This document shows positions 5,915-32,176 of a stretch of DNA of 32,176 nucleotides, one piece after another (position 1 is the first letter of the stretch; each line of letters opens with the position of its first letter). This stretch comes from a virus, in the IMG/VR virus record IMGVR_UViG_3300020180_000084, positions 1 to 32,176 of that record; one strand, written 5' to 3'. The position numbers and the translations under genes are program-made. Below the pieces are notes generated by a model. That model did not search any database and had not been told where the DNA came from. It worked only from the letters and a program-made list of their open reading frames with translations.

Positions 5915-7903
5915 TCATTTAGCCTCAAGTGCTTCAATTCGCACCGATAGTGATAAAATAATTTGTTGTTGCTCTTGCATTGCTTTAATGAGCCTTGACT
6001 CTCCTTTGCCAAGGCCGGCTAACGATAGGTAACCAGTTTTCTCATCTGCACTCACTAAATCAGGATAAATCTTTGCTACTTCTTGAGCGATAAAACCGAT
6101 CTGATGTCCGCTGCCATTTTTGTAATCGAACTCAACCGGTCGAAGGCTCATTATGTTTGATAGCTGACTCGGTAACGAAACAATATTTTCCTTTAGTCTC
6201 TCATCAGATATATTAGTGAAAATCGCTTGTTCGGCACCGTTGCCCGTGATACTGCCGTTGGCAGTTGTAACGCCAGTAAAAAACCGCATAAACGTCTGTG
6301 TGGTGCCGGTTGTTGTGGTTCTTTTACGGATATAAACACCCGCACCCCTGTCATTGGCATCAGTTGCGTTAAGACTTCTAATATCAAGAAGGCCTGCATC
6401 GGTATCAGCCAGGATGCTTACGGACCCTACGGGAGCCGCTACAGCGCCGAATGTTGCCGATCCGGTGCTGGTAATTCTAAATCGGTAAGCTAATGCTGTT
6501 GAATCATAAATGCTAAGACCGTTTGTTGATGAATTGCCATCACCGTCAACGTCACCAACAAACATACTAAATTTGTTAGATGCCGCTCTCTGGAACTGCA
6601 AAAGCGGCCCAGATCCAGAGGTGCCAGAGTTGATATTAAACGTAGCATCTGTGGTGCCAGTAATAGTTTTAGGACCAAAGATAGTTTGTGCGCCTACAGT
6701 AACTATCCCAATGTCTGTGCTACTTGCTGCCGCGCCGGTTGTGAAAAAACCAGGGGCATCAATCTGACCGGAAACAACGTCCGTACCGTTACCGCGCACT
6801 ACTCTGTTATTTGTTACGGCCGCTACTCTTTCAGCTACACCGGAAGTACCGCCCCGGATTAAGTCGCCCCTGGTAGTCATCGGGCTCGTTAAGACCGAAA
6901 TCCAGCTCGTATTTGTGGCGTCTGTACTTAATACCTTGCCGCTATGAGTCGCCTGTGATGGGAGTAAAGCATTAGTTGCTGCGTTGGCTGTGGTTTGTCC
7001 TGTGCCGCCGTTAGCAATTGGTGTCGCGCCTGATAGCTGAGTAGCCGCTAAAACAGTGATTGTGTTGCTTGCGCCCGCTATCGTCTTATTAGTAAGCGTA
7101 GCGCTCGCGCTATTCTTTGTGGTGTCCGATGTATTGTCTACGTTACCTAGGCCTACATCAGCTTTAACTATTCCCGTTGGTGAATTAATTACGGGTGCCG
7201 TTAAGGTTTTGTTGGTCAGTGTTACCGATGCCGCATTCTTTGTGACATCCGAGGTATTGTCTACGTTGCCTAGGCCAAGCTGGGTTGCCGTTGTGCTATG
7301 CGGGTTTGAGGTGCTAGCTATGTGAGATGCTGAGGTAGTGATAGCAGTATCAATCTGGGCATGAGTATTAGTGCCAATCGCAGTTAAATCAGTATGCGCC
7401 CTGGTAGCCAGGTCCGTTAGGTTTGAACCGGTCTTTGATACCTTAGTCCAGGCAATAGCAGCAGCCGCGTCAATGTTGGCGTCTAATAGTAAGGCCCATG
7501 CGTAAGCTGTGCCGCCTGCATTCATCCTTAATGCTGTGTGGGCTGTGCCAAGTGCTAGGGTAACAATTGGAGTGCCGTCAAATTCTAAGACATTTGAAGC
7601 ATTAAGTTTTAAGGCTAGGTCAGCTCCATTGGCTGCGTTACGCCAGGCTACTGACTCATTATTACCAAGCCTTACAATGCCGGTAGTGGATGGTGTTGAG
7701 CGGCTTGAAAACTTCGCGGCCTTAAGACCATAGGTAGCGCCGAAGTCAACATCGGCCGCTGTCAGTGTGAAGGTGCCACCTACTTTTTGCAGGGTGCCGG
7801 TCGCTAGAGCAATGAGGTAGGCGCTAACTTGCCCGCCCCAAGCTCTTTCACCTGTAGCTGGCACTGAGTAACTCGTGCCGTTAAAGCTTACTGTAGTAGC
7901 CAT
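5915..7903 (-). CDS. Fiber protein with C-terminal S74 intramolecular chaperone domain, 662 aa
   Basis: N-terminal part (MATTVSFNGTSYSVPATGER) resembles phage fiber attachment regions. The middle is Ser/Thr/Ala/Asn-rich with two copies of GLGNVDNTSD spaced 41 residues apart, typical of trimeric fiber shafts. The last 99 residues are a peptidase S74 domain: NISDERLKENI, then FDYKNGSGHQIGFIAQEV, then a C-terminal coiled coil. The Ser-Lys dyad of SDxRxK (S566, K571) is intact, so self-cleavage after trimerisation is expected. AAGGA precedes the ATG at 7903. It lies between small head-type genes and the adaptor, so it may be a head fiber or a tail fiber. Receptor or polysaccharide binding is inferred. 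Confidence 0.88.
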   Translation of the reverse strand: MATTVSFNGTSYSVPATGERAWGGQVSAYLIALATGTLQKVGGTFTLTAADVDFGATYGLKAAKFSSRSTPSTTGIVRLGNNESVAWRNAANGADLALKLNASNVLEFDGTPIVTLALGTAHTALRMNAGGTAYAWALLLDANIDAAAAIAWTKVSKTGSNLTDLATRAHTDLTAIGTNTHAQIDTAITTSASHIASTSNPHSTTATQLGLGNVDNTSDVTKNAASVTLTNKTLTAPVINSPTGIVKADVGLGNVDNTSDTTKNSASATLTNKTIAGASNTITVLAATQLSGATPIANGGTGQTTANAATNALLPSQATHSGKVLSTDATNTSWISVLTSPMTTRGDLIRGGTSGVAERVAAVTNNRVVRGNGTDVVSGQIDAPGFFTTGAAASSTDIGIVTVGAQTIFGPKTITGTTDATFNINSGTSGSGPLLQFQRAASNKFSMFVGDVDGDGNSSTNGLSIYDSTALAYRFRITSTGSATFGAVAAPVGSVSILADTDAGLLDIRSLNATDANDRGAGVYIRKRTTTTGTTQTFMRFFTGVTTANGSITGNGAEQAIFTNISDERLKENIVSLPSQLSNIMSLRPVEFDYKNGSGHQIGFIAQEVAKIYPDLVSADEKTGYLSLAGLGKGESRLIKAMQEQQQIILSLSVRIEALEAK
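7079..7276 (-). repeat. Two-copy internal repeat in the fiber shaft
   Basis: Residues 210-234 and 251-275 of the fiber are near-copies, both containing GLGNVDNTSD and then ASxTLTNKT. At DNA level the block with tattgtctacgtt occurs twice, 123 nt apart. Such blocks arise by duplication and set shaft length. Confidence 0.8.
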
Positions 7904-24164: not shown

Positions 24165-24920
24165 CTATAATCCTATTAGCTCACAAAAGGCTTGCCTGAC
24201 TTGGAGCGGGACCACTGCGTTACCAAGGCATTTAATTCGGTCCAGTCTGTGGGATAATTCATCAACCATTCGACCCACCGGGGATTCAACTTCCCACCAA
24301 CCGCCGTTGTTAGCTTCACCGCTACACCCAGGTTTGATATTTTCTTCTTGGTATTTGTCTTGGGGTCCTTTGATCTGGCCATCCTGGCTAAATAGCTCTC
24401 CGGTGTTTCGTCGATCTCCATTGCTTTTGGTGTGGGCCAAGAGAAACCAGCGCTCTCTTTTGTGCGGCGCTCCAACGTCGAAAGCGGATAAAGTCGTCCA
24501 CCTACAATCATACCCGACCTCGGCCAGCTCTTTGCATACTCGTTCACCGCCACGAGTTCGGATTGCAGGAACGTTTTCGAGGAAAATAAAACTTGGTCGG
24601 ATCTCTTTGACCAACCGCAGGATCTCGAAAAATAAGCCGCTTCGCTCACCTTCCAAGCCCTTTCCAAGGCCTGCAATGCTGATGTCCTGACAGGGGAAAC
24701 CGCCGTAAATAATGTCAACCAATCCTCGAAGCCTTGTGCCGTCAAGCTTTCTGATGTCTGAGAAAATGGGGGCGTGTGGGAGTCGGCCTTCAAGCATTCT
24801 GGAAATGATGATTGATTGGGCGTATTTGTCGATCTCGCAGTAGGTAATGGGTCTAACCCAATCGCTAATGGCGATAGTAATGCCCCCGATGCCGGTAAAT
24901 AAATCCAAGCCATTTAGCAA
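24165..24920 (-). CDS. C5-cytosine DNA methyltransferase, 251 aa
   Basis: Conserved C5-MTase motifs appear in order: I DLFTGIGG (6-13), IV GGFPCQD with catalytic C77, VI FLENV (113-117), VIII GAPHKRERWFLL (150-161), and X CLGNAVVP (231-238). The target-recognition region between VIII and X is short. It would transfer a methyl group from S-adenosylmethionine to cytosine, perhaps to shield phage DNA from restriction. Start is TTG at 24920 with AGAGG 5 nt upstream; an in-frame stop lies just before. The nearby ATG (24913) belongs to another frame. No CTAG and five GATC were counted within it, unlike the neighbours, suggesting recent acquisition. Target sequence cannot be told. Confidence 0.95.
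   Translation of the reverse strand: MLNGLDLFTGIGGITIAISDWVRPITYCEIDKYAQSIIISRMLEGRLPHAPIFSDIRKLDGTRLRGLVDIIYGGFPCQDISIAGLGKGLEGERSGLFFEILRLVKEIRPSFIFLENVPAIRTRGGERVCKELAEVGYDCRWTTLSAFDVGAPHKRERWFLLAHTKSNGDRRNTGELFSQDGQIKGPQDKYQEENIKPGCSGEANNGGWWEVESPVGRMVDELSHRLDRIKCLGNAVVPLQVRQAFCELIGL
24176..24913 (-). CDS. Overprinted 245-codon frame inside the methyltransferase gene
   Basis: A second frame on the same strand is open for 245 codons from an ATG 7 nt inside the methyltransferase. It contains SPVRTSALQALERAWKVSEA, WPRSGMIVGGRLYPL, FSWPTPK and GKLNPRWVEWLMNYPTDWTE. From memory, WPTP and LNPxWVEWLMGFPxGWT motifs recur in many deposited phage proteins. Here WPTP is the shifted reading of LAHT, and the LNP block is the shifted reading of the region before motif X. 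It could be a real overlapping gene sharing the AGAGG site at 12 nt, or a shadow kept open by conserved MTase codons. Confidence 0.3.
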   Translation of the reverse strand: MAWIYLPASGALLSPLAIGLDPLPTARSTNTPNQSSFPECLKADSHTPPFSQTSESLTAQGFEDWLTLFTAVSPVRTSALQALERAWKVSEAAYFSRSCGWSKRSDQVLFSSKTFLQSELVAVNEYAKSWPRSGMIVGGRLYPLSTLERRTKESAGFSWPTPKAMEIDETPESYLARMARSKDPKTNTKKKISNLGVAVKLTTAVGGKLNPRWVEWLMNYPTDWTELNALVTQWSRSKSGKPFVS

Positions 24921-24932
24921 ATTATCCTCTCT

Positions 24933-25244
24933 TCAATCTATTTGTTGGCCTGTTAAAGGCTTAATATAAGGTAGCGGGGGCACTGCTATCTCTAGGGGTG
25001 CGCAGTCCTTGTGCTGGCAATGCCTTAAGTAAGTAGCTAGGGCATTACGGCCTTTTTTGTTGGGCCTGTCGTTCTTACCAACTAGGCAAAGGTCCCTTAG
25101 TATCATTGAAGTCATGCCCGAGACTTCTCTGCCGGCTATGCGCTCGGCTATAGCGCTCGCTATGCTTAAGGGTGTGATTGTGCGCTGCCGCCAATTGGCT
25201 TTTAGGGTTGCGTCCCAAACCTCTCTAGAGGGGGCTAGAATCAT
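24933..25244 (-). CDS. Unknown protein, 103 aa
   Basis: It overlaps the lipoprotein gene stop by ATGA, so it is coupled to it. Contains TPLSIASAIAERIAGREVSG and LVGKNDRPNKKGRNALATYL, the latter basic and possibly DNA-contacting, with a cysteine/histidine cluster (LRHCQHKDCAP). No family recognised. It precedes the methyltransferase by 12 nt. Confidence 0.7.
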   Translation of the reverse strand: MILAPSREVWDATLKANWRQRTITPLSIASAIAERIAGREVSGMTSMILRDLCLVGKNDRPNKKGRNALATYLRHCQHKDCAPLEIAVPPLPYIKPLTGQQID

Positions 25245-26095
25245 TTTTTACCTTCTAATACAATTTTTGCGGCCGATAGCCAGCCCACTAGGCAATAGAT
25301 ATCTGGTCTTGCCCCTCTTGCGTAGCTTGGGCAGTGTGGTTCTGACAAGAGCAGATTGATTGCTTTTGCTTGGTCGCCCTTAAACTTGCCTAGTGCTGCA
25401 ACAAATAAAGGGTTGCCGGGGCTTTCTTCGGCATGCTCCTCTAATCTTTTAAGCATCTCCTCGGTGATTGAGCCGCTTACTTTTTCTTGCAGCAAAATAC
25501 CTTGCACTTGCACGTGCCGCTCGTAGTCCTCTGATACTGGCAGATAAAGGGCCGGGGTGTGTCGGTAGGTTCTGTCACTACTGCCGGATGAGATGTTATA
25601 GATTGCTCTACCTAGTAGGCCTATGAGGTTACCAGTTAAAAGCACCCTTGAAACCATAGCTTTTGGCTCGCCCATGATCCAAGCATTGGCTTGGCCGTAG
25701 TCAGCTAGACGCTTTAAAGCGTCTAGGTCATCTCTCTCTATAGCGCATGCTAAATAGCCGGTAACCATATCTCTAGAGATTGTGGACTTTGAGCCCTGAT
25801 CAATGCCCTCTTTTGAGTAGCAAGCTTTGTAGGGGCGCCTGTGTAGCTCACCGGGGCTATGCTCGGCTAGGTCGATTCTTACTGGCATGCCTAAGGAGCA
25901 GGCTAGGCCGTTCCATAGGAGACCGTCACAGTCATGGTTGTCGATCCAACCTGTTACGGGGTCAAGCTCGTTTTGGACGTCTCTATAAATATGGTCGAAA
26001 TAGATTTGTAGGTCATCGGTATCATTGGTGTGGGGCTCGGCTTTTTTTGAGCTGCAGGCGGTTAGAGACAAAAGAAGGATGATTAACTTGACCAT
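25241..26095 (-). CDS. Lipoprotein of unknown function, 284 aa
   Basis: Signal peptide MVKLIILLLSLTAC has a clear lipobox (LTAC, C14) followed by SSKK. The mature part has a dense run of Asp, Arg and Cys (NHDCDGLLWNGLACSLG, then GELHRRPYKACYSKEGID, then STISRDMVTGYLACAIERDD) that looks like a structured, possibly enzymatic core. A helical C-terminus with NPLFVAALGKFKGD follows. AAGG about 9 nt upstream. It is the first gene after the promoter at 26128-26157, so expressed ahead of the lysis genes. Superinfection exclusion or cell-surface alteration are possible. The core reminds me of phage proteins of unknown role. Confidence 0.8.
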   Translation of the reverse strand: MVKLIILLLSLTACSSKKAEPHTNDTDDLQIYFDHIYRDVQNELDPVTGWIDNHDCDGLLWNGLACSLGMPVRIDLAEHSPGELHRRPYKACYSKEGIDQGSKSTISRDMVTGYLACAIERDDLDALKRLADYGQANAWIMGEPKAMVSRVLLTGNLIGLLGRAIYNISSGSSDRTYRHTPALYLPVSEDYERHVQVQGILLQEKVSGSITEEMLKRLEEHAEESPGNPLFVAALGKFKGDQAKAINLLLSEPHCPSYARGARPDIYCLVGWLSAAKIVLEGKK

Positions 26096-26167: not shown

Positions 26168-26200
26168 ATAAAAGAACCCCGCCTCGGGTGAAGCAGGGCT
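26168..26200 (-). terminator. Rho-independent terminator closing the virion operon
   Basis: On the minus strand AGCCCTGCTTC pairs with GAGGCGGGGTT (11 bp including three G-T pairs) around a 4-nt ACCC loop, followed by C and four T. It lies 41 nt beyond the protease stop and upstream of the next promoter. Confidence 0.85.
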
Positions 26201-26240: not shown

Positions 26241-27200
26241 TCATTTATCAGATACGCAAGAGTTAAAATCTGTGTAGGCCTTTCGGCATCCTGGGGCAGG
26301 AAACTCAACGCATGCCGCTAGCTCATTTAAAAGAGCCTCGCAGTCTAGCGGATCCGTGCCGCCTGGCTTACATTCGCCTGCACCGTGCCCGCACAAAGAA
26401 ACTCCCTTAGACACTTCATACTCGGCCACCCAACTAACAAACTCGCTATGTCCATAGTGGTTATAATAGCTGCAGGTGTTGTTACCGCGTGAGTTTACGC
26501 CGGTGCCTACTGGCCAGATGCTAGCAAAGGTTCTATCGGCACCGTTGACCATGAGAGTACCGCCTGAGTCACCGCCCCCGAGGTTTGAGGGGCCGCATGT
26601 TACTACGTCTTGGTTGCCGGAATAGGAGCTAATTTTAGCTGTGCCCCAGTAGTGAGTGCCCACATTAGGAGCGCCGAAACCATTGACATACATATCAACG
26701 CCGATTTTGGGCTTAAGCTTTGAAAGGTTTACGAGTTTTGAACCGGCTGGCAGTGAGGTATCTAGCTTGCAGAGTGCCCAATCGTTATAGATTGTGCTTG
26801 TGTTGTAGCGTGGATGCCGGGTGCAGGTGCCGGCGTAGCTTTTGCCTGACTCTCTGTGAGCAAAATTGATGCGCGCTCCTGTGCCTTTGCAGTGAGCTGC
26901 AGTGATGACTACGTTGGGAGCGACTGCGTTAGCTGTGCAGTTACCGATCCAACCCGAGGTTCCAAATTCGCCTGAAACAGTTTTAGTGCCTCGGTAAACT
27001 TCGGTGTCTAAAATTGTATCAACCTCATAGCTAGGGATGCCGCCTAGAAAAATCGGGTAACCTGACCTGTCAAGGCCGATAACGTCGCCCCTTTTAGGCT
27101 CATCAAAACGTAGGCCGTTTTCATCAGTTAGTGGCTGTGCCGCCGTAGCTGTGCAGCTAAAGACTGAAAAGAAACAGAGTAAAAGTAACTTCTTAATCAT
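26241..27200 (-). CDS. Exported trypsin-fold (S1) serine protease, 319 aa
   Basis: Signal peptide MIKKLLLLCFFSVFSCTATA suggests export. The S1 triad is complete: VVITAAHC (H103), YNDWALCKL (D140) and GGGDSGG (S212). Six residues before the catalytic Ser, where trypsin has its specificity Asp, there is Asn (N206), so Arg/Lys preference is not expected. Eight or more cysteines suggest disulfides; residues 270-319 form a separate Cys-rich tail (six Cys). A pro-segment of about 50 residues precedes the catalytic domain. It is the last gene of the virion operon, before a terminator. S1 proteases are rare in phages. Its substrate, and whether it is a virion part or secreted by the infected cell, are unknown. 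Confidence 0.93.
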   Translation of the reverse strand: MIKKLLLLCFFSVFSCTATAAQPLTDENGLRFDEPKRGDVIGLDRSGYPIFLGGIPSYEVDTILDTEVYRGTKTVSGEFGTSGWIGNCTANAVAPNVVITAAHCKGTGARINFAHRESGKSYAGTCTRHPRYNTSTIYNDWALCKLDTSLPAGSKLVNLSKLKPKIGVDMYVNGFGAPNVGTHYWGTAKISSYSGNQDVVTCGPSNLGGGDSGGTLMVNGADRTFASIWPVGTGVNSRGNNTCSYYNHYGHSEFVSWVAEYEVSKGVSLCGHGAGECKPGGTDPLDCEALLNELAACVEFPAPGCRKAYTDFNSCVSDK

Positions 27201-27205
27201 GGAAA

Positions 27206-27229
27206 CCCCCAGGTGTATTAATTGGGGGG
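27206..27229 (-). promoter_or_regulatory. G/C hairpin covering the protease ribosome binding site
   Basis: On the minus strand CCCCC (within 27224-27229) can pair with GGGGG (27206-27210) around 13-14 nt. The G run is the only ribosome-binding-like sequence, 5 nt before the protease ATG, so pairing would hide it. This may lower protease translation. Short stem; speculative. Confidence 0.3.
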
Positions 27230-27236
27230 CATGGTA

Positions 27237-30595: not shown

Positions 30596-31951
30596 TTATC
30601 CCTTCTTTTTTGCTAGAGAGGCTAGTATGAGGCCAATAAGGTTATCGGTGTCTAGCATTTTACCGTCCTCGGTGTCTTTGACTACGTGCTTACCTAGTTC
30701 AGTACCCTCTACGTCTTGAGCCATGATGCCAACGCGTACGCCCTCTTGAGTGCCGGGTTTAGATGTATCTTTGTATTTAAACTTTTTACCGCCACTGGCT
30801 GCGGTAAAAAACTCCTCTAGCTCATCGTCAGAGATTCTAGATACGTCTTTCTTTTCTCTTTCATCTGACATTAGGGCCCCGGCTGCAGTCATTACCCCCT
30901 GCTTTTTTTGACCGATCGCTGCCTCTTTTTTGTCGGCACCGGCTTGAGCCGCTGCCCCGGCTTGAGTAAGTGCGCCCCCTCTGCCCTGCATCTTTGTTAC
31001 TTTATTGGCGAAGTCTTGCTGCGGGAGATCAATTTTTGCGCTGTTATTTTGGCTTATGTTTTTGTCGGAGTTACCTTGACGGCCCGCGAGGTTTGTTTTT
31101 GCTGCGTCCATGGCTGTATTTTTGTTAAACATGCCGGTTTCAAGCTTATTGCCTGCATTAAATTGACCCATTTGGTTGGTTGCGGCCGCATTAAACTCTT
31201 TATTATCGTTTAGGGTGCCGGCATTGAATTTAGAGATCGCGTCAAAGGCCTCGGCTCTCTGGGCGTTTTCTCCGAAGTCTTGGCCCCTGATAGCGCCGGC
31301 TAGCTGGCCGCCCTCACGCATAGCTTGCATTGATCTGTCCTGTGCCATGCCTGCTACGTCAAGGCCTTCTTGGGCTACTCGGTCGGTAGCGGCTTGGCTT
31401 GAATCTAGCTGGGCTAGGAGCTCCATGCCGGATCCGCCCATGCCTCTTTGCTGCATGCCTTGGAGTATGGCATCTCTACGGCCTTTATCGCCTGATGCTG
31501 CGCCGCTTGAGATTCTACTTAGGACGGCCCTATCGGATGCATTAAAGCCGCCGCCGTCTACTAGCTCGTTAAGCGCCCCAAGGCTTGCCATTTGATTTTC
31601 TTTTAACCTCGGGTCACCTTCGATATCGTCGAATGCTGTGCCGGAGACGGTGTCGGCGCCGGCAAGCCTAGCGTCTACATCCTCATATGTAACGTCCTCA
31701 CCTTGGTCTAGGTCGTTAAGCCAAGAATATTCGTCTAGGTCCGTCCCCTCTAGGTCAGGTGTTGAAAGACCGTCCCACTGTTTACGATTTTCTTCGGCGA
31801 TTTTATCGGCTTTGGCTTGGGCCTCATCTCCTGACGCGTCTAGCCAGGGGTTGGCACCGTCTAGGCCCTTGCCTATTACATCCCAGTTACCAAGGGCTCC
31901 TGTGGTGCCCTTGCCGCCTAAACCGCCTACTGAAAATTTCTTCTTTGCCAT
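30596..31951 (-). CDS. Internal-type virion protein with C-terminal S74 chaperone domain, 451 aa
   Basis: N-terminus is Gly/Lys-rich (MAKKKFSVGGLGGKGTTGAL). The middle is Gln/Ala/Met-rich (MQQRGMGGSGMELLAQLDSS, VAGMAQDRSMQAMREGGQLA), typical of phage internal or tail-tip proteins. The last 90 residues are an S74 domain: SDEREKKDVS with the Ser-Lys dyad (S362, K367), FKYKD, and VGIMAQDVEGTELGKHVV. Self-cleavage at S362 would release the chaperone after assembly. It shares the junction GGATAAACAAAATGGC with the 588-aa gene. Function beyond virion assembly is not clear. Confidence 0.83.
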   Translation of the reverse strand: MAKKKFSVGGLGGKGTTGALGNWDVIGKGLDGANPWLDASGDEAQAKADKIAEENRKQWDGLSTPDLEGTDLDEYSWLNDLDQGEDVTYEDVDARLAGADTVSGTAFDDIEGDPRLKENQMASLGALNELVDGGGFNASDRAVLSRISSGAASGDKGRRDAILQGMQQRGMGGSGMELLAQLDSSQAATDRVAQEGLDVAGMAQDRSMQAMREGGQLAGAIRGQDFGENAQRAEAFDAISKFNAGTLNDNKEFNAAATNQMGQFNAGNKLETGMFNKNTAMDAAKTNLAGRQGNSDKNISQNNSAKIDLPQQDFANKVTKMQGRGGALTQAGAAAQAGADKKEAAIGQKKQGVMTAAGALMSDEREKKDVSRISDDELEEFFTAASGGKKFKYKDTSKPGTQEGVRVGIMAQDVEGTELGKHVVKDTEDGKMLDTDNLIGLILASLAKKKG

Positions 31952-31956
31952 TTTGT

Positions 31957-32176
31957 TTATCCCAATAGTGATTTAATTTTTTTAGAAGATGGGAGGGCCT
32001 TTATCGGTGCTAAAGCTGCCTTCTTACTTAAAGGGGCCGCAGTAACAGCAACGCCCGGTGCAATGGCTTTTTTAGCTTCGGCGGTCACTGCCTTCTTAGG
32101 GTCTTGTTGTTGGTTATTTTTGCTGGCCGTCTTGATCACCTTAGGTGCGTTGACATTTTTAACCGCTGCGGCCAGC
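31957..32176 (-). CDS. C-terminal end of the 588-aa virion protein (gene continues from base 1674)
   Basis: This is the 3' part of the gene starting at 1674: bases 32050-32176 duplicate 1-127, and 31957-32049 complete it to the stop. The tail is basic and low-complexity (KKAVTAEAKKAIAPGVAVTA, then APIKALPSSKKIKSLLG), like histone-type DNA-binding tails. There is no separate gene start here; a GTG at 32139 is internal. Confidence 0.85.
   Translation of the reverse strand, partial: LAAAVKNVNAPKVIKTASKNNQQQDPKKAVTAEAKKAIAPGVAVTAAPLSKKAALAPIKALPSSKKIKSLLG
32050..32176. repeat. Right copy of 127-bp terminal direct repeat
   Basis: Identical to 1-127. See the left copy: joining the ends removes one copy and gives a 32,049-bp circle. 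Confidence 0.95.

Follow-up and report, generated by a model that had tools for sequence, protein, structure and literature searches.

Locus and genome

A gene for a 319-residue S1-type serine protease lies on the minus strand of a 32,176-nt stretch of viral DNA (IMG/VR record IMGVR_UViG_3300020180_000084), which was analysed as a whole and is referred to here as the window (Table 1). At the base composition of the window, an open frame of 319 codons has a probability of ~6e-8 of arising by chance, and the codon usage of the gene is typical of the genome. Its start codon is separated by 36 nt from the third of the ejection-type genes, and a terminator-like hairpin of 10-11 pairs, followed by a U-tract, begins 40 nt past its stop codon; an earlier note on this DNA, made from the sequence alone, had correctly placed the gene between the ejection-type proteins and a terminator. 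Promoter-like sites did not exceed chance level. The simplest reading of this layout is that the protease is probably transcribed late, together with the virion genes including that for the 723-aa protein. A CCCCCC...GGGGG inverted pair (27201-27230, minus strand) could hide the GGGGG stretch just 5' of the protease start codon.

Table 1. Position of the protease gene, its parts and its flanking features in the window
Feature	Position	Strand	Basis or remark
Upstream ejection-type (internal virion) protein, 723 aa	27237..29408	(-)	Syntenic homologues in L002, G222, G241
S1 protease gene	26241..27200	(-)	319 aa plus stop; ATG at 27200, stop at 26241-26243
Predicted export signal, residues 1-21	27138..27200	(-)	Sequence; type I site between TATAA and Q, or lipobox VFSC (Cys16)
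Predicted pro-segment, residues about 22-67	27000..27137	(-)	Low pLDDT; superposition
Catalytic domain, residues ~68-277	26370..26999	(-)	Pfam, model, structure comparison
Catalytic H103	26892..26894	(-)	Invariant in alignments
Catalytic D140	26781..26783	(-)	Invariant in alignments
N206, S1-pocket position (chymotrypsin 189)	26583..26585	(-)	Six residues before S212; alignment
Catalytic S212	26565..26567	(-)	Invariant in alignments
C-terminal tail, residues 278-319	26244..26369	(-)	Linker and two-helix hairpin; sequence, model
Terminator-like hairpin and U-tract	26175..26200	(-)	Consensus match only
Next downstream gene, 284-aa lipoprotein	25241..26095	(-)	Also in phages G222 and L127

An exact overlap of 127 bp between its ends (1-127 = 32050-32176), together with a virion gene that continues across the junction, shows the window to be a complete, circular genome of about 32.05 kb (~32,049 bp). 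A mis-join at the protease, a possibility raised in the earlier note, was looked for and is unlikely in view of this circular overlap, the intact gene order and the native codon usage. Terminase, portal, major capsid protein (MCP), tail, fibre, M15 endolysin and holin-like genes are recognisable, whereas searches of the window for Rfam families and tRNA genes found none. Several other genes deserve mention in their own right. A 451-aa virion protein encoded upstream of the ejection-type genes (30596-31951) ends in an S74 (endosialidase-type chaperone) domain, and the end of the tail fibre (5915-7903) is S74-like by PHROG matches. The lipoprotein next to the protease belongs to an unnamed family common to three phages, in which its position differs (window 25241-26095; L117:16287-17108; L127:2318-3241); in L127 the lipoprotein occurs together with an S1 protease and with an M15 endolysin resembling the window's. 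Between the lipoprotein and lysis genes lies a C5 cytosine methyltransferase gene (24165-24920) with a long ORF in an overlapping frame.

Among named phages, one of Silvanigrella aquatica comes nearest, at 25-30% identity; in IMG/VR, the relatives G221, G241 and G222 are closer, their portals being 46-50% identical and their set of virion genes the same. Neither the 723-aa protein nor TerL, each scanned alone, gave matches, nor did the tail-protein alignment A3. No PF00089 or PF13365 gene was found in these three closest syntenic relatives, and the protease is likewise absent from the Silvanigrella phage. Behind its ejection-type gene, G222 has a weak CHAP-like gene; a GDSL lipase whose start resembles that of a lipoprotein is encoded elsewhere. 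The earlier description of the protease as the last gene of the virion operon thus stands as a statement of position and fails as a conserved property, because syntenic relatives lack the protease and its homologues are placed otherwise. Since the metagenome-assembled genome (MAG) bins with related phages disagree (Flavobacteriaceae, Bacteroidales, Spongiibacteraceae, Proteobacteria), no host was assigned; the Bdellovibrio-like host hinted at previously finds a faint echo only, through the Silvanigrella aquatica phage at its 25-30% identity.

Architecture and active site of the protease

The protein matches Pfam PF00089 with 45.5 bits (cut-off 20.6). Residues H103, D140 and S212 correspond in alignments to the S1 triad (H57-D102-S195) and are unchanged across bacterial S1 enzymes and 14 phage relatives. 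AlphaFold models of 15 family members have core pLDDT values of mostly 80-98, and that of the window protein, which has the chymotrypsin fold, superposes on chymases and trypsins with a Z of about 24 and an rmsd of 1.7-1.8 A over 183 residues, among them 2rdl_A (VIA Z 24.6, rmsd 1.7 over 183 residues). The complete triad read earlier from the sequence is thereby confirmed. With S1A enzymes (PF00089) the protein shares the double beta-barrel, the H-D-S triad, the GDSGG motif and the N-terminal activation geometry, as well as the pair C88-C104, equivalent to C42-C58. Unlike them, it has Asn at position 189 and no Cys at 191 (Cys at 202 may replace it), a pro-segment of its own and a helical tail with twin CX9C motifs. 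The pocket residue, Asn206, was rightly given as Asn rather than Asp and recurs in the closest relative, L125; the Asp at 189 that marks trypsin specificity is thus absent.

The N-terminus, MIKKLLLLCFFSVFSC-TATAA followed by Q, is compatible with type I cleavage, and its stretch LLLCFFSVFSC matches the lipobox pattern as well. A lipobox also occurs in 5 of the 14 relatives, including L125 (LMSC), the remaining N-termini resembling plain signals. The protease is thus predicted to be Sec-exported, either free or perhaps lipid-anchored at Cys16, the anchor being an option beyond the signal peptide already proposed. Residues 1-68 of the model are of low confidence and residue 69 superposes on residue 17 of chymotrypsin, and therefore V68 is the expected mature N-terminus and residues ~22-67 the likely pro-segment, in agreement with the one postulated before.

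In the model, the C-terminal tail forms helices at 287-299 and 304-317, a predicted hairpin that bears two CX9C motifs. The separate tail with six cysteines of the earlier note is correct in its count; C287, C297, C305 and C315 are the only cysteines of the tail proper, while C270 and C277, conserved across the family, form part of the final stretch of the protease domain. Assignment to the twin CX9C (CHCH) proteins (PF16860) was rejected at 15.0-15.8 bits against a cut-off of 26.4, the cysteine spacing alone being in agreement.

Related proteases on phage contigs and chromosomes

Single-protein scans of IMG/VR and GTDB genomes with the window protease gave no match, nor did tblastn against phages (E up to 10) and plasmids. 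Motif patterns, drawn from an alignment with bacterial S1 enzymes and then from the first members found, uncovered about 15 related proteases in IMG/VR on other, mostly unrelated phage contigs (L125-L132, L137, L138, L140, L160-L162, L167, L169), so that the homologues which the earlier note had proposed to look for in phages do exist and are not bacterial only. L125 comes closest, with 41% identity that extends over the pro-segment, and has CGPSNLGGGDSGG in common with the window protein; the remaining members are alike in their cysteine pattern, in NSR(G) (most of them) and in a CG...C ending, while their C-terminal tails differ. In a maximum-likelihood tree the phage proteases form one group (support 100/98), separate from ordinary bacterial S1 enzymes, within which the window protein pairs with L125 (100/99); an isolate-genome copy (L139) and the chromosomal copy of G454 also fall inside this group. 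Most members have no PHROG, no close matches were present among 50,697 phage records, and no description of this phage S1 protease family was found in the open-licence literature. Some 16 environmental phage contigs from several lineages carry this distinct S1 subfamily, in some cases alongside papain-type proteases. The latter (PF00112) were observed at L131:5629-6579, L138:5930-7069 and L137:14299-15171, those of L131 and L138 having export signals and lying <1 kb from the S1 gene.

Neighbourhoods vary from member to member. An SLT transglycosylase, a lysis gene, overlaps the protease gene or lies 91 nt upstream of it in L126 and L128; DUF5675 is found nearby in L138 and L160, in the latter in one run with the protease; other neighbours are GH108 (L131), terminase (L132, L137) and tail-type genes (L125, L128). 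Compared with the other ORFs on these contigs, the protease did not lie significantly closer to recognised lysis genes (nine loci, combined p 0.16), even with lysis-gene seeds partly drawn from the protease's own neighbours, a bias towards a link, and a family-wide lysis association was therefore rejected.

Chromosomal relatives are rare. In the phylum of G021, 1 of 398 genomes carries a true family member (153 bits, all others <=60 bits), as do 3 of 385 genomes in the class of that genome; the 296 genomes of the phylum of G019 yielded generic matches only, at most 57 bits. The chromosomal copies of G454, G942 and G1075 belong to the same subfamily by profile (139-193 bits) and share the CG...C ending. 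Next after each of the three lies a gene for an exported subtilase of 775-817 aa (L204:9593-12791, L211:9538-12673, L212:9308-12626), possibly a conserved operon of two proteases. These pairs are sited on bacterial chromosomes, unlike the window gene on its phage genome; because they occur, the family is not phage-specific in function, and they point to a matching, unstudied bacterial S1 plus subtilase pair.

Among named phages, searches that used a family member as query turned up a single record, the 'serine protease' gp109 of Rhodococcus phage Shagrat (OQ938576; 24%). It is likewise an S1 protease gene; it falls outside the family in the tree and does not lie with virion or lysis genes. PHROG 9683 ('protease'), which the window protein does not match, and the Trypsin_2 proteins of ~85-kb relatives are further exported or anchored trypsin-fold phage enzymes, some of them from the window's own phage clade.

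Possible functions of the protease

Phage prohead proteases are cytoplasmic enzymes without an export signal, encoded between the portal and the major capsid protein. This role was rejected for the window protein on account of its S1 fold, its export signal and the distance of its gene from those for portal and MCP; it is not a capsid-maturation protease, as the earlier note had implied, and is unlikely to be a component of the particle. The targets suggested in that note, namely the host envelope, competitors or other surfaces, are plausible.

We regard the protease as an accessory gene because G221, G222 and G241 share the virion genes yet lack it; such a gap among near relatives whose core genome is alike is expected of a moron gene. 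The reading we favour, to which we would give an even chance, is that of an exported, perhaps lipid-anchored accessory (moron-type) S1 protease acting on the host envelope or its surroundings. Fold and triad, the export signal, a family on phage contigs with patchy presence, the late position before a terminator and the lysis neighbours in L126, L128 and L160 suggest as much; the non-significant lysis association across the family and the chromosomal S1 plus subtilase pairs count against it. Late transcripts continuing past the virion genes as far as the terminator would supply the protease, which would leave the cytoplasm through its signal, free or as a lipoprotein, and would be cut near V68. 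The enzyme, with its four-Cys helical tail, could then cleave proteins in the host envelope or in its immediate surroundings. The likeliest pay-off would be a clean-up of the surface around release that helps the envelope to open, and with surface proteins removed, cell and debris might bind less phage.

An alternative that we consider possible but improbable is the exclusion of superinfecting or competing phages, with the exported enzyme cutting phage receptors or the tail proteins of rivals extracellularly. A bacterial analogue may be seen in a secreted protease that lowers phage titres extracellularly and that phages escape through tail-protein mutation (PMC13175485), and the differing C-terminal tails could aim the enzyme. 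The gene is often placed at transcription-unit edges, as accessory genes are, although this is significant under one of two ORF cut-offs only (strand opposed to both neighbours in 5 of 16, more often than for other ORFs, p 0.015, under one and in 3 of 16, p 0.10, under another). Against exclusion, the window protease has no PADLOC match.

Lysogenic conversion, by which the gene would alter the secreted proteins of a lysogen (in nutrition, predation or host association), is in our view rather unlikely. Of the exported S1-fold proteases that phages encode, the best known is a toxin carried by a staphylococcal phage, exfoliative toxin A of Staphylococcus aureus, which is of S1B type and has a Gram-positive host and an animal target. 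The window protease is likened to it by description, and nothing suggests an animal target here. Carriage of that exported S1-fold protease as an accessory gene of phage phiETA (PMC13304586) may nevertheless serve as a precedent by analogy, and a helix-turn-helix (HTH) repressor-like gene in the window and an integrase in the relative G241 would fit. However, no integrase was recognised in the complete window genome, part of whose genes were scanned against Pfam, and a gene that follows virion genes and precedes a terminator is expected to be expressed late rather than in lysogeny.

More speculative, and in our judgement doubtful, is a broader role as an envelope weapon, in which unrelated phages would have taken an exported S1 family from bacterial S1 plus subtilase pairs for stripping receptors from host surface and debris at the end of infection and for destroying rival virions. 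Such an enzyme would be the proteolytic counterpart of a receptor-destroying enzyme, with tails differing from phage to phage. If receptor removal, envelope opening or rival killing were true, sequence surveys would be filing a proteolytic layer of phage-host interaction under generic 'trypsin'.

We find it very unlikely that the protease is a virion or ejectosome component at work in the periplasm during DNA entry. The 36-nt gap to the third ejection-type gene makes a common transcript probable, and a Trypsin_2 protease is present in 6 of 7 large (82-88 kb) clade members, in L018 and L019 membrane-anchored and encoded between TerL and portal; these two, unlike the window protease, are of PF13365 type. 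Yet the export signal and disulfide-type cysteines suit release from the infected cell, not packaging, the syntenic relatives keep the same virion genes without the protease, and homologues elsewhere are not, as a rule, among virion genes, so that the tie to the virion suggested earlier is not supported beyond local position. Least probable of all is a bacterial gene that was picked up recently or is decaying and that does nothing for the phage: rare chromosomal relatives do exist, but triad and pro-segment are intact and conserved across the divergence from L125 (41% identity), codon usage is native and the phage members form one clade.

The Trypsin_2 carriers observed among the ~85-kb clade members are L018:11510-12250, L019:11507-12247, G225, G247, G258 and G265, and the protease of L018 is similar to the protease portion of the PADLOC RT-Protease_XI models.
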